Assembly: GCF_000260115.1 (NCBI RefSeq)
Contig: NZ_JH651379.1
Span: 558,001-622,000, forward strand
Reading direction: 5' to 3'
From: Galbibacter orientalis DSM 19592
GTDB taxonomy: Bacteria > Bacteroidota > Bacteroidia > Flavobacteriales > Flavobacteriaceae
DNA length: 64,000 bases
The notes under the pieces are model-generated. The model had not been told where the DNA came from, made no database searches, and saw only the letters and a list, made by a program, of their open reading frames with translations. The stretch's first letter is position 1, and the number at the start of each line of letters is the position of its first letter. This document shows positions 45,707 to 50,773 of this stretch, one piece after another. The position numbers and the translations under genes are program-made.

Positions 45707-47605
45707 ATGAGTGACGCTATTAAACACGAATGTGGAATTGCACTAGTTAGACTGCTAAAACCATTAGAGTACTATAAAGAAAAGTACGGAACTGCATATT
45801 ACGGTATCAATAAAATGTACCTAATGATGGAGAAGCAACATAACAGAGGGCAAGATGGAGCAGGATTTGCCAGCATTAAATTAAATATGCAACCAGGAGA
45901 GCGCTATATGAGTCGTGTACGCTCAAACCAAGCACAGCCTATCCAAGATATTTTTAATCAAATTAACTCTCGTATTAACGACGAGTTGAAGGAAAACCCT
46001 GAGTACAACGATAGTATTGATATCCAAAAACGTGAAATCCCTTATCTAGGAGAGTTAATGTTAGGGCACGTACGTTACGGTACTTTTGGTAAAAATAGCA
46101 TAGAAAGTGTACATCCATTTCTAAGACAAAACAACTGGATGCACAGAAACTTAATTGTAGCTGGAAACTTTAACATGACCAATGTTAACGAGCTATTTTC
46201 AAACCTAATTCGTATTGGGCAACACCCAAAAGAAAAGGCAGATACAATTACAGTAATGGAAAAAATAGGTCACTTTTTAGATGATGCTGTTTCCAAACTT
46301 TATAAGCAAATTAAGAAGGAAGGCTATACAAAAATGGAAGCTTCTCCAATTATTGCTGAAAGATTAAACGTAGCCAAAATCTTAAGAAAAGCTGCTAAGA
46401 ATTTTGACGGAGGTTATGCTATGGCAGGACTTATTGGACATGGAGATGCTTTTGTATTAAGAGATCCAGCAGGAATCCGCCCTACATATTACTACCAAGA
46501 TGACGAAGTAGTAGTTGTTGCTTCAGAAAGACCTGTAATTCAAACCGTTTTCAATGTAAATTTTGATGATGTAAAGGAACTAGATCCTGGAAAAGCTATT
46601 ATCATAAAAAAAGATGGCTCTACTTCTACTAAAAAAATATTAGACCCTTTAGAAAGAAAAGCATGTTCTTTTGAACGAATCTATTTCTCTAGAGGAAGTG
46701 ATGCTGAAATTTATCAGGAAAGAAAAAACTTAGGACGTTTCTTACTTCCAAAAATCTTAAAAGCTATTGATGAAGATATTGAAAACACAGTATTTTCGTA
46801 CATTCCAAATACAGCGGAAACCTCTTTCTACGGAATGGTAAAACAAGCTCAAGATTTTTTAAATGAGAAGAAAGAAGAGGAAATACTCAAAGAGGGGGCT
46901 AACCTTACTAGCGAACGTTTACACGAAATACTTTCTAAAAGACCTCGTATTGAAAAGGTAGCTATAAAAGATGCAAAACTACGTACTTTTATTACCGAAG
47001 ATAGTAGTAGAGACGATTTAGTAACTCATGTTTATGATGTTACTTACGGATCTGTAAAGCCAACCGATAATCTTGTTATTATAGATGATAGTATTGTTAG
47101 AGGTACTACATTAAAAAAGAGTATCCTTAGAATTTTAGACAGATTACACCCTAAAACAATTATTGTGGTTTCTTCTGCACCGCAAATTCGTTATCCAGAC
47201 TGCTATGGTATTGACATGGCACGTATGGAAGATCTAATTGCCTTTAAAGCTGCTTTGGCTTTACATGAAGAAAGAGGAACTATAGCTATTGTAGAAGAAG
47301 TATATAAACACTGTAAAAATCAAGTAGATTTACCTGACTCAGAAGTTGAAAATGCTGTTCAAGCTTTTTATGAACCATTTACAGATGAAGAAATTTCTGC
47401 TAAAATTTCAGAACTTCTATGCCCAGAAGGAATAAATGCCGAAGTGCAAATTATCTATCAAACAGTTGAAAATTTACACAAAGCATGTCCTAAAAATTTA
47501 GGAGATTGGTATTTTACAGGTAATTACCCTACAGCAGGAGGAAATAGAGTAGTAAACCGTTCATTTATGAACTTTTACGAAGGAGTGCAAGGGAGAGCTT
47601 ATTAA
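45707..47605 (+). CDS. Amidophosphoribosyltransferase-type protein, long Bacteroidota form
   Basis: The 632 residues begin MSDAIKHECGIALVRLLKPL; Cys9 would be the N-terminal nucleophile of the class II glutaminase after loss of a short propeptide. Glutaminase motifs HNRGQDGAGFASI and MLGHVRYGTFGKNS are present. The PRPP-binding loop NLVIIDDSIVRGTTLKKSIL and ISSAPQIRYPDCYGIDM-like segment define the transferase half. It is about 120-150 residues longer than classical PurF, with extra charged sequence around residues 390-440. It probably makes phosphoribosylamine, though a specialised paralogue cannot be excluded. Confidence 0.85.
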   Translation: MSDAIKHECGIALVRLLKPLEYYKEKYGTAYYGINKMYLMMEKQHNRGQDGAGFASIKLNMQPGERYMSRVRSNQAQPIQDIFNQINSRINDELKENPEYNDSIDIQKREIPYLGELMLGHVRYGTFGKNSIESVHPFLRQNNWMHRNLIVAGNFNMTNVNELFSNLIRIGQHPKEKADTITVMEKIGHFLDDAVSKLYKQIKKEGYTKMEASPIIAERLNVAKILRKAAKNFDGGYAMAGLIGHGDAFVLRDPAGIRPTYYYQDDEVVVVASERPVIQTVFNVNFDDVKELDPGKAIIIKKDGSTSTKKILDPLERKACSFERIYFSRGSDAEIYQERKNLGRFLLPKILKAIDEDIENTVFSYIPNTAETSFYGMVKQAQDFLNEKKEEEILKEGANLTSERLHEILSKRPRIEKVAIKDAKLRTFITEDSSRDDLVTHVYDVTYGSVKPTDNLVIIDDSIVRGTTLKKSILRILDRLHPKTIIVVSSAPQIRYPDCYGIDMARMEDLIAFKAALALHEERGTIAIVEEVYKHCKNQVDLPDSEVENAVQAFYEPFTDEEISAKISELLCPEGINAEVQIIYQTVENLHKACPKNLGDWYFTGNYPTAGGNRVVNRSFMNFYEGVQGRAY

Positions 47606-47676
47606 AAGCTCATTGCACTTTAACGTTAAAATATGCAATTTAACTGATTCTTAACTTAAAAATAGCACATATATCA

Positions 47677-47684
47677 TATCTTTG
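47677..47684 (+). promoter_or_regulatory. -7 promoter element of small RNA copy 1
   Basis: TATCTTTG is an exact TAnnTTTG match, 5 nt before the conserved RNA block at 47690. The -33 region is weak. Confidence 0.6.
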
Positions 47685-47689
47685 CTTAT

Positions 47690-47761
47690 ACCATAGCATA
47701 AGTAGGTTAAGTTCATGGTAAGATTTGGGGCAAAAAAGGTGGATTAATTTCCACCTTTTTT
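47690..47761 (+). ncRNA. Candidate small RNA, copy 1
   Basis: About 72 nt. The first 47 nt are identical to copy 2. They start ACCATAGCATAAGTAGG; TACCAT (47689-47694) can pair with ATGGTA (47715-47720), enclosing a 20-nt loop, and AAGATTTGGGGC follows. The 3' end is an intrinsic terminator: AAAAAAGGTGGA (47732-47743) with TCCACCTTTTTT (47750-47761) around TTAATT. No start codon with a following ORF is present and no gene follows on this strand, so it is a free-standing RNA rather than a leader. It may belong to a described flavobacterial RNA family such as Flavo-1; I cannot check this. Confidence 0.75.
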
Positions 47762-47968
47762 ATTTTCTACACTTTTAAGCTTCACTTTTAGAATTTCATA
47801 AATAAAATATCTCAAAGATAATTCTGGAACATTAGAAAAATATTTTGATGTAAGCGTTGAAATATTTGAGTGCATACATTTAATGTTGTATTCCATAAGC
47901 AACATTCATTTCATCCAACAAAACGAGCATTATATCCGATTCTTAAAGACAGAAACATTAGCAGTTTA

Positions 47969-47976
47969 TATATTTA
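47969..47976 (+). promoter_or_regulatory. -7 promoter element of small RNA copy 2
   Basis: TATATTTA differs from TAnnTTTG at one position and lies 4 nt before the conserved block at 47981, almost the same spacing as in copy 1. Confidence 0.5.
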
Positions 47977-47980
47977 CACT

Positions 47981-48052
47981 ACCATAGCATAAGTAGGTTA
48001 AGTTCATGGTAAGATTTGGGGCAAAAAGGGCGGATTAATTTCCGCCCTTTTT
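47981..48052 (+). ncRNA. Candidate small RNA, copy 2
   Basis: About 72 nt. Nucleotides 1-47 are identical to copy 1. The terminator stem is AAAAAGGGCGGA (48023-48034) with TCCGCCCTTTTT (48041-48052) around TTAATT. Compared with copy 1, two stem positions changed together with their partners (A-T to G-C and T-A to C-G), so the fold is kept. The flanking DNA is not conserved between the copies, so selection or recent duplication acted on the RNA unit alone. Confidence 0.75.
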
Positions 48053-48089
48053 ATTTTTATAATCTTATTCCTTCTAAAATAACATAAAA

Positions 48090-48113
48090 AAACGCCTGTA
48101 AATACAGACGTTT
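48090..48113 (-). terminator. Intrinsic terminator of the Gfo/Idh/MocA gene
   Basis: On the minus strand AAACGTCTGTA pairs with TACAGGCGTTT (one T-G wobble) across TT, followed by TTTT. It lies 22 bp downstream of the stop at 48135. Confidence 0.8.
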
Positions 48114-48134
48114 CTTAGATTTATACTAAAGATT

Positions 48135-49562
48135 TTACACTTTTAATTCCCAACCTTTTCTATAAGTTCCTGTAACCCATTTATTAGCATCTGGGTAATT
48201 GGTTACTTTCATATTCTCGCCATCCCATAAAATTTTCTTTCTTCCAGGATAGTCGTATGGAGCCCAATCTCCCACTTTTTTACCAGGTTGTAACACTTTA
48301 TACTGGAAGGCTTTTATAGCTAAATTCCCCATCAAAACAGCTTCTGTTAATGGTCCAGCATAAGAAAATGGTGACGAAGTTTCAATTCCTTTTAAACATC
48401 CATCAACAAAATTATTATAATGCCCACCAATAGCTCCATCTACACGTTTAAGATGTTCTCTAGGGAATGCACCTACTTTATCTTTATAATGATTTAAGAT
48501 TCTAGGATTTTCTGAATACGCATCCGTTACTAAAATTCCTTTTTCACCATAAAAAATAGAACCTCCTCCTGGATCTCCAATAGTTTCTCCTTCTTGTAAT
48601 TCTTCAGGAATTTTAGGCATAATTCCGCCATCATACCAATTTACTTCAATATCACCATGAGCTTCTGTATTAAACTTCAATCTAACAATAGAAGAAGGCG
48701 GACAAGCCTCATCATAATTTGCTTCTACAAAATCTCCAGACCAAACAGTAGTACAACTAGCCTCTGCTTCCGTTGGATATCCTAACTTTAAAGTTCTAAA
48801 TGGAGTTTCCAAAATATGGCATCCCATATCTCCTAAGGCTCCAGTTCCAAAATCCCACCAACCACGCCATTTAAATGGCAAATAAGCCGAATTGTAGGGT
48901 CTAAACTCTGCAGGCCCCAACCACTGATTCCAATCCAACGTATCTGGTACAGGCTCTCCATCTGGACTATTCCTAAGTCCTTGCGGCCAAACAGGACGGT
49001 TTGTCCAACAATCAACTTTAAGAACCTTTCCAATAACCCCTGCTTCAATCCACTCTTGAGTAGTTCTTGCACCATCTGAAGAACTTCCTTGATTCCCCAT
49101 TTGCGTAACAATTCCCTGCTCTTTAGTAACCTTAGACATTAGGCGAGCTTCAGCTATAGTGTGCGTAAGAGGTTTCTCTACATACGCGTGCTTTTTAGCT
49201 TGCATAAAAGGAATGGCTACTGTAGCATGATTATGGTCTGGCGTTGCCACCATAATTGCATCTATATCTTTTAAATGATTATCGTATACTTTTCTAAAAT
49301 CGCTATAAGTTTTTGCATTAGGATGTGCATTAAAAGTGTCTTTTGCTCTAACATTATCCACATCACACAAAGCAACATACTTTACTTTTTTAGTATTGTA
49401 AAGTTCTTTTATAACTTGACCTCCTCTTCCGCCAACTCCAACACCCGCCATGTAAAGGGTGTCACTTGGAGGAACATGAATTCCTCCCATTACATGAGAA
49501 GGTACAATGTAAAGTGCGCTTCCTGCTGCCGCTGTGCTTTTAATAAAATTTCTCCGTTTCAT
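48135..49562 (-). CDS. Exported Gfo/Idh/MocA-family oxidoreductase
   Basis: The 475 residues begin MKRRNFIKSTAAAGSALYIV, a twin-arginine-type signal, so the folded NAD(P)-containing enzyme is expected in the periplasm. The Rossmann part includes MAGVGVGGRGGQVIKELYN, and the family motif AYVEKPLTHT gives the catalytic Lys. The C-terminal half matches Bacteroidota secreted members (WNQWLGPAEFRPYN, WWDFGTGALGDMGCHI). Some relatives oxidise glycosides to 3-keto sugars, which would fit the DUF1080 protein at 5389-6282, but the genes are far apart. Confidence 0.88.
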   Translation of the reverse strand: MKRRNFIKSTAAAGSALYIVPSHVMGGIHVPPSDTLYMAGVGVGGRGGQVIKELYNTKKVKYVALCDVDNVRAKDTFNAHPNAKTYSDFRKVYDNHLKDIDAIMVATPDHNHATVAIPFMQAKKHAYVEKPLTHTIAEARLMSKVTKEQGIVTQMGNQGSSSDGARTTQEWIEAGVIGKVLKVDCWTNRPVWPQGLRNSPDGEPVPDTLDWNQWLGPAEFRPYNSAYLPFKWRGWWDFGTGALGDMGCHILETPFRTLKLGYPTEAEASCTTVWSGDFVEANYDEACPPSSIVRLKFNTEAHGDIEVNWYDGGIMPKIPEELQEGETIGDPGGGSIFYGEKGILVTDAYSENPRILNHYKDKVGAFPREHLKRVDGAIGGHYNNFVDGCLKGIETSSPFSYAGPLTEAVLMGNLAIKAFQYKVLQPGKKVGDWAPYDYPGRKKILWDGENMKVTNYPDANKWVTGTYRKGWELKV

Positions 49563-49641
49563 TTATTAAATCATTAAAGTTTTTATTGGTTACTGATAAT
49601 TTGGCAAAAAAGTTACGTAAAAAATTTAGAAGAATAATTCA

Positions 49642-49675: not shown

Positions 49676-50773
49676 ATGTCCAAAGAAAAAAATATCATAA
49701 AAGGAAGAGGCGCACAGCTAAATGTTCGGAATAAATTTCTTGAAGCATCTCATGAAACTAGAGATGATTTCTTGGAATATTGCAGATTAGAAGGAGAAGT
49801 AGCAGATAAAAATAAGACGAGCTATTTAGAAGTATTTCCAAAAACAATTGTAAATAAAGTAACCAGTCCAGATGTAGGAATGGCTTATTCCATGAATCCA
49901 TATCAAGGATGTGAGCATGGGTGTATTTACTGTTACGCTAGAAACTCTCATGAATACTGGGGTTATAGCGCCGGTTTGGATTTTGAACGAAAAATTTTAG
50001 TCAAAAAAAACGCTCCTCACCTTTTAGAACAAAAGCTTTTAAGTAAAAATTGGAGCGCTAAAACTATTGTTATGGCAGGAAACACAGATTGTTATCAACC
50101 TGCGGAACAAGAATTTAGAATTACGCGGAAATGCTTAGAAATATTCTTGAAGTACAAACATCCTGTAGCAATTATTACCAAAAATGCCTTTATTAGAAGG
50201 GATTTAGATTTATTAAAAGAACTTACTGCCCATGGTCTTATTGCAGTAAATATCTCGATTACTTCCTTGAGCGAAGAAACTAGAAGGGTTTTAGAGCCAA
50301 GAACTGCCAGTATTAAAAAAAGGTTAGAAACTGTAAAACTGCTCAGCGAGAACAACATCCCTGTTAACGTAATGATTGCCCCTATTATTCCAGCCATAAA
50401 TAGTCATGAAATATTACCCTTAGCTAAAGCGGTAAAAGAGCATGGTGCACTGTCCATTGCCTTTACAATGGTTAGGTTAAACGGAGCTATTGGAGAAATT
50501 TTTACTGATTGGATACAAAAAACACTTCCAGATAAAGCAGAAAAAGTATTACATCAAATAGCAGAATGCCACGGCGGAAGCTTAAACGATAGCAGGTATG
50601 GCGTTAGAAAAACTGGAGAAGGGAAAATTGCAGAACAAATTCACAACCTCATTAGAATTGCCAGAAACACCTATTTTAAGGATACTGATTTCCCTAAATT
50701 AAACCATAGTTTATTTGAAATGCAGCGTCATAAAATGAAGTATAACTCCAATGGACAAACAAGTTTATTCTAA
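49676..50773 (+). CDS. PA0069-type radical SAM protein (SPL-related)
   Basis: The 365 residues have the radical SAM cluster motif C79-x3-C83-x2-C86 in QGCEHGCIYCYARNSHEYWG, preceded by NKVTSPDVGMAYSMNPYQ. SAM-binding segments include VMAGNTDCYQPAEQEFRITR. This matches the PA0069 family, distantly related to spore photoproduct lyase, of unknown substrate. It is cytoplasmic and transcribed alone. Its ATG is unusually close to the predicted -7 element. Confidence 0.88.
   Translation: MSKEKNIIKGRGAQLNVRNKFLEASHETRDDFLEYCRLEGEVADKNKTSYLEVFPKTIVNKVTSPDVGMAYSMNPYQGCEHGCIYCYARNSHEYWGYSAGLDFERKILVKKNAPHLLEQKLLSKNWSAKTIVMAGNTDCYQPAEQEFRITRKCLEIFLKYKHPVAIITKNAFIRRDLDLLKELTAHGLIAVNISITSLSEETRRVLEPRTASIKKRLETVKLLSENNIPVNVMIAPIIPAINSHEILPLAKAVKEHGALSIAFTMVRLNGAIGEIFTDWIQKTLPDKAEKVLHQIAECHGGSLNDSRYGVRKTGEGKIAEQIHNLIRIARNTYFKDTDFPKLNHSLFEMQRHKMKYNSNGQTSLF

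Follow-up and report, generated by a model that had tools for sequence, protein, structure and literature searches.

Predicted tandem small RNA genes beside a purF-like gene in Galbibacter orientalis and other Flavobacteriaceae, with a candidate LytTR-type control site

Two tandem units 3' of a purF-like gene

The window, by which we mean the whole 64,000-nt stretch of Galbibacter orientalis DNA that was analysed, contains two short units of about 75 nt on the plus strand, at 47689-47764 (copy 1) and 47980-48056 (copy 2). They follow a purF-like gene (45707-47605, plus strand; TIGR01134 at E 2.3e-36, with 126 bits where the cut-off is 350). With our covariance model of the family, R1, copy 1 scores 102.4 bits and copy 2 scores 102.1 bits, both units being among the 70 sequences from which that model was built. 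At 24 bits or more, R1 finds only two places in the G. orientalis genome, at about 102 bits each.

The initial annotation had placed two tandem units 291 bp apart, which is where they lie, and had given them an identical 5' part of 47 nt; the identity is as described, but its length is 48 nt (47689-47736 and 47980-48027). It had further read the differences between the copies as paired changes in the terminators, and this is what the alignment contains: one A-U pair has become G-C and one U-A pair has become C-G. That no plus-strand gene follows the array also agrees with our gene calls, in which the next likely plus-strand gene begins at 49676; a plus-strand frame at 49275-49577 overlies a minus-strand gene.

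Each unit is preceded by a sigma-A type -7 element, TATCTTTG at 47677-47684 for copy 1 and TATATTTA at 47969-47976 for copy 2, both on the plus strand and both already noticed in the initial annotation. The account of promoters in PMC9723704 sets this element at -12 to -5 from the start of transcription, and by that rule the predicted starts are 47689/47690 for copy 1 and 47981 for copy 2. Throughout the family, TAnnTT is present in 273 of 275 distinct upstream sequences, against a mean of 44.5 after shuffling.

On the far side of the array a minus-strand hairpin with a T-run (48089-48117) resembles, by eye, a terminator for the convergent gene of GFO/IDH type at 48135-49562.

Fold and conservation of the units

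The folding energies of copies 1 and 2 are -21.9 and -25.8 kcal/mol (z -4.2 and -4.5), and none of 200 shuffles was as stable as either unit. The predicted RNA consists of a hairpin at its 5' end, then a short GATTTGGGG linker, then a terminator. In the minimum-energy fold the hairpin, ACCAT...ATGGT with a near-invariant loop, occupies 47690-47719 in copy 1 and, in the same form, 47981-48010 in copy 2. The conserved linker AAGATTTGGGGC lies at 47720-47731, where it was delimited by column conservation over 286 units, and at 48011-48022, where it was recognised from its sequence. The intrinsic terminators follow at 47732-47761 (from covariation in the family) and 48023-48052 (from fold, covariation and sequence), all on the plus strand.

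Within the family, both partners have changed in 9 of the 11 pairs of the terminator helix, and 99.6% of cells are paired. The 5' helix is paired in 98.4% of cells over the 70 units, and none of its pairs changes on both sides (two vary on one side only), so that it is backed by energy and consistency, not by covariation. The computed conservation is concentrated in a 41-nt core, which is almost fixed, while the terminator stem varies yet stays paired: 26 of the 27 columns that are invariant over the 70 units fall inside the core. Across 286 units, little varies from ACCAT through TTTGGGG, and conservation sets in abruptly at the predicted start; these figures are overstated because each of these loci came from an exact match to the core. 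Rows added from other genera by model search include changes in the 5' arm (e.g. ACCATAACATTA) and retain GTAGGTTAAG, ATGGTA and GATTTGGGG in nearly all cases. A hairpin plus T-run is present in 280 of 284 units.

Two loci, L122 and L130, have sequence after the terminator (GCCCCAAATC or GGCCCAAATC) that, judged by eye, could pair wholly or almost wholly with the GATTTGGGGC linker, and the terminator stem could therefore extend in some genomes.

Both copies in G. orientalis contain an ATG and a short open frame (ATGGTAAGATTTGGGGC..., MVRFGAKKVD), which raises the possibility that a micro-ORF is the product. We regard this as extremely unlikely. A one-base indel in the core shifts the frame, such that 172 of 283 units read MVRFG and 101 read MVDLG, and there are 253 distinct readings altogether; there is no conserved micro-ORF, and what is conserved is bases, not codons. 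Each unit has a promoter and an intrinsic terminator of its own and no conserved ORF, which is the make-up expected of a trans-acting sRNA gene.

Distribution of the family and constancy of its locus

A cmscan against Rfam and a covariance-model search of flavobacterial genomes had both been proposed in the initial annotation, along with the suggestion that the units might belong to a known family such as Flavo-1. No Rfam 15 family reaches its gathering score within the window, and the Flavo-1 suggestion found no match there. Alignments below threshold (sraA at 28.6 bits, STnc40, the L20 leader and others) were rejected because they fall below the gathering scores and, in the alignments displayed, rest mainly on the terminator hairpin. 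Model R1 matches 167 of 199 sampled Flavobacteriaceae genomes at E<=1e-3 (162 of 199 at E<=1e-8), five of the 167 being weak (E 3.9e-7 to 5.7e-4); among good-quality genomes of the family the count is 145 of 165. An exact 32-nt core pattern occurs in at least 119 stretches whose titles are flavobacterial or Bacteroidetes where named, and 119 such loci were taken, among the matches listed, with a few genomes split into two slices.

In a sample of the whole order, 37 of 148 genomes match at E<=1e-3: G. orientalis, 16 others of its family and 20 from other families, these 20 scoring at most 38.6 bits. Matches outside the family were set aside as chance terminators: 13 weak-match loci have no core and neither a purF-like nor a superoxide-dismutase gene, and the remaining 7 of the 20 were judged on score alone. 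The 1.2-1.5 kb 3' of the purF-like gene hold no unit in 13 family genomes and 7 genomes of other families (best score 17.2 bits; the 13 are family genomes without a good match, one of which had a weak match). Thus the RNA family is broad but not universal in the Flavobacteriaceae.

The locus itself is constant. Among the matches listed, a purF-like gene lies 5' of the array in all 101 exact-match loci with at least 1000 nt of upstream sequence, and a superoxide-dismutase gene faces the array in 77 of 92 loci with at least 1200 nt downstream (the dismutase name comes from a match at E 1.2e-73 that is under its cut-off). The 45 strong-match loci from model searches, two of which overlap in the G. 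orientalis genome, have the purF-like gene in 45 cases and the dismutase gene in 38. In the window and in four relatives the place of the dismutase gene is taken by a GFO/IDH-type oxidoreductase, an assignment made by Pfam for the window's gene only. Of the arrays, 68 are flanked on both sides within their slice, and these hold one copy (3 arrays), two (33), three (7), four (17) or five (8), and matches per genome reach 7 in the family survey.

This constancy bears on two further explanations. Tandem copies might suggest a mobile or REP-like repeat, the contrary outcome envisaged in the initial annotation, but the purF-side position is the same in every locus with enough flank, and the genome holds only two copies at 24 bits or more; we give a mobile repeat almost no credence. 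The two units are not a local duplication either. The array could also be a cis element of purF, a 3' UTR or series of terminators without function in trans, given that it lies close to the purF-like gene on its 3' side, at a median distance of about 110 nt. Against this, almost all copies are preceded by a -7 element and most by an upstream site; an element that served only for termination could do without a fixed 41-nt core; and the purF-like gene is still present in the 13 family genomes that have no good match to the RNA, all of which makes such a cis element very unlikely. That the two units are sRNA genes, free-standing and in tandem as initially proposed, with their own promoters and terminators at a fixed purF-side locus, is near certain, and we expect both to be transcribed.

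A direct repeat upstream of the units

The spacer between the units had been described as unconserved. This is true in part: the roughly 75 nt 5' of the units contain a direct repeat kept in the genus and the family, a putative control element that had been overlooked. Most typical units have this GCATTTCATCGA-type repeat, with a period of 20, beginning 72-75 or 83-86 nt 5' of the unit. Copy 1 has it at 47615-47646 (GCACTTTAACG...CAATTTAACTG, period 20, plus strand; 22.4 bits, at -74), and copy 2 has a weak version at 47906-47937 (plus strand; 7.9 bits, at -74), both scored with a matrix built from 141 upstream sequences without the source genus. The second copies of loci L004, L005, L006, L008 and L009 score 14.4-19.9 bits at -72/-73, and that of L007 scores 11.9.

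The repeat emerged from an expectation-maximization motif search of 152 non-redundant upstream sequences, which returned a 32-nt motif, GCnTTTyAwCGA...G...TTnrTCTA, with a total score of 2896 (60 starts); four shuffled sets, given 15 starts each, reached 1025-1038. The motif matrix correlates with itself at 0.86 for a shift of 20 and at no more than 0.18 for 15 other shifts tested, and its best inverted correlation is 0.30. With this first matrix, 239 of 290 units reach 12 bits, against 0 of 290 shuffled upstream sequences. When the genus-free matrix is applied, 234 of 259 typical units reach 12 bits, 232 of them at -72 to -75 or -83 to -86, two positions that lie one helical turn apart; 25 of the 259 stay below. 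Outside the training loci, 32 of 34 units in 14 loci score at least 13.9 bits at -71 to -74 (10 of these loci come from one other genus, and none shares DNA with the training set), one of the two misses being a divergent paralogue. An 864-kb sample of the G. orientalis genome has 7 sites of at least 16 bits on both strands, that of copy 1 included.

A divergent paralogue of the unit (GCCATAGC...TTTATGG...GGGACG) is last in the array in 30 of 30 cases (L019, L020, L027, L132 and others) and has its own conserved upstream sequence, CAATACCAGTAaTTTAG. Among these 30 units, which are from other genera, 4 reach 12 bits and none does so at -72 to -86.

What might bind the repeat? The arms are about 9 nt (GCATTTCAT type) with an 11-nt spacer and a period of 20, which fits the layout given for LytTR sites in PMC4847170, namely direct repeats of 9-11 nt with spacers of 11-13 nt, and the half-site resembles the YpdB half-site GGCATTTCAT cited there. 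These features suggest that a protein of the LytTR family binds upstream of the sRNA genes, and LytTR control of their promoters is likely. The genome encodes eight LytTR proteins. None of their eight loci has a strong site (best 12.9 bits), and none is linked to the array by position, which leaves room for the repeat to be bound by another regulator or to act as an UP-like element, with the sRNAs otherwise as described. We consider this rather unlikely, in view of a period-20 direct repeat with arms of about 9 nt, a YpdB-like half-site and two positions one helical turn apart.

Other genes preceded by the site

All seven genomes of the genus have a LytTR-like site (14.8-22.1 bits) upstream of another sRNA-like transcript, which is unrelated to the tandem sRNAs and adjoins a gene resembling an ABC-F ATPase by eye. 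In G. orientalis this second sRNA (locus L284, C1:271330-271610, minus strand) has a conserved core, TTCCATATTTTAGTTAGTTTGTTTGATTGATTTACAGAGTG, and a terminator. Its model, R2, matches 8 of 199 genomes, strongly only in the two of the source genus in the sample. In the five genus genomes examined the site (23.6-25.4 bits) also precedes two genes. In G. orientalis one of them encodes a PorP/SprF protein and the other an Ig-like protein bearing a CHU_C type IX signal; the site there scores 24.1 bits (locus L294, from about 2912, near C1:3276911).

Proposed mode of action

We propose that a single trans-acting sRNA gene of about 75 nt is present here in two copies, each of which would be transcribed from its own sigma-A promoter. 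A LytTR-family response regulator may bind the direct repeat some 45-75 bp upstream and activate these promoters, and because of such activation the array would be the multi-copy output of a two-component system. The fixed core would then pair with several mRNAs, probably around the start codon, and alter their translation. Taken as a whole, this reading of a multi-copy trans-acting sRNA, driven by a LytTR two-component system and pairing to mRNAs, is in our judgement probably correct, and pairing in trans is its most likely but unproven mode of action.

Known systems offer precedents for its parts. Pairing in trans is a common mode of action for RNAs that are encoded in multiple copies under regulated promoters. 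Qrr, csRNA and LhrC are examples: under two-component systems, each exists as several almost identical copies whose promoters are individually regulated. The tandem sRNAs share with them the near-identical copies and the apparently regulated individual promoters; those RNAs are not known to be related to them in sequence and are under other regulator families. RNAIII (under AgrA) and VR-RNA (under VirR) are regulatory RNA outputs of LytTR response regulators, and are single, longer RNAs of Firmicutes. The tandem sRNAs would resemble these as a LytTR output, the comparison of sequence being that made by the Rfam scan.

Pairing was examined over 708 start regions from a fifth of the genome, in which start codons were guessed by taking the most upstream ATG in the longest frame. 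Duplexes of -18 kcal/mol or lower number 216 there, against 160 (sd 18) for 40 shuffled RNAs, and the tail of best duplexes does not differ from that of shuffled RNAs. Complementary words that are raised, GCTATG, CTATGG, CATGAA, CCATGAA and their relatives, include the start codon itself; no complement of the linker AAGATTTGGGGC is raised in the 708 regions, and among loop complements without ATG only CTTAACCT is (3 against 0.6 expected). In fixed-register pairing across the AUG, 143 regions form at least 8 pairs, against 110 (sd 8) and with 0 of 200 column shuffles doing as well, and 29 form at least 10 pairs, against 21 (7 of 200 column shuffles). Shuffled RNAs reach the real count in 5 of 400 cases at 8 pairs and 16 of 400 at 10 pairs when G-U is allowed, and in 266 of 400 at 8 pairs with Watson-Crick pairs only, so that the excess over shuffled RNA holds with G-U counted and not for Watson-Crick pairs alone. 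Outside the array, each of seven genomes has 0 or 1 occurrences of a 12-nt complement of the core.

A more ambitious version of the proposal goes further. The ACCAU 5' end would mimic the context of a start codon and hold back UUCAUGG as an anti-start-codon seed, and it is therefore conceivable that the RNA opens onto mRNAs at their AUG; the LytTR system might then drive a battery of such sRNAs across flavobacteria together with genus-specific outputs, namely the second sRNA and the type-IX-secretion surface operon. We put this forward tentatively, as possible and not as probable.

A different reading of the same RNA is that it binds a protein, as a sponge or cofactor whose dose is set by copy number. 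It would explain why the core is fixed at nearly every base; complete arrays hold one to five copies, and the target tests yielded no convincing mRNA targets among the 708 start regions. Each short RNA, on the other hand, has one motif where many repeats might be expected, and a candidate protein is absent: RRM_1, the type of the FopS partner in Bacteroides, is unmatched in the seven genus genomes (PF00076, the domain of the RbpB type of partner; 0 of 7 at E<=1e-3). Protein binding as the main function is unlikely in our view, and we return to pairing with mRNAs as the preferred reading.

The nearest described RNAs are FopS/GibS of Bacteroides (RF04319; PMC11697453), likewise multi-copy Bacteroidota sRNAs of about 70 nt that end in a terminator. 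According to PMC11697453, FopS has a single-stranded 5' seed, pairs near start codons and numbers 14 members per genome in B. thetaiotaomicron, whereas the present sRNAs have a 5' hairpin and one tandem locus. Their 5' ACCAT is predicted by the minimum-energy fold to pair with ATGGT, and so would not be a single-stranded seed of the FopS type. The FopS consensus UUCAUGGUAUUAGAUUU resembles UUCAUGGUA-AGAUUU of the core, and the FopS model gives 18.1 bits (E 0.5) and 17.3 bits, against a gathering score of 56. It exceeds its cut-off in 0 of 198 genomes of a phylum sample, the positive control Bacteroides ihuae being matched. A FopS match in another family of the order was discarded: at 43.9 bits it is under the cut-off, it lies antisense over a gene start, and its 3-kb locus has neither a purF-like nor a superoxide-dismutase gene.

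In Flavobacterium psychrophilum, PMC9723704 describes Rfp18, an sRNA conserved among flavobacteria whose deletion lowers two protease mRNAs. The pairing region given there for Rfp18 is a third stem-loop, whereas the tandem sRNAs have two hairpins, a comparison made by description only; another of Rfp1-89 could be these tandem sRNAs. PMC5395568 lists candidate sRNAs of F. columnare without an Rfam match. The present family was not found described in the main texts of the open-licence literature searched. Regulatory RNA in flavobacteria is scarcely explored, that literature yielding one functional study (PMC9723704) and one list of candidates (PMC5395568), and here is a family that is common among those sampled, has no Rfam 15 match, occupies one predictable locus and has a candidate control site. 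The array is also compact enough to be removed in one step, which would provide an entry into the putative LytTR signalling pathway.

The words TTAACCT and CTTAACC, considered as a class of targets, were traced to a 21-nt promoter-like motif before start codons and dropped. The exact 21-mer GTTTAACCTAAATTTATTCGT lies directly 5' of the start codon of two unrelated genes, at 1798-1818 of the window and at about 141091-141111 of contig C1, and resembles a -7 element that would yield a leaderless mRNA.
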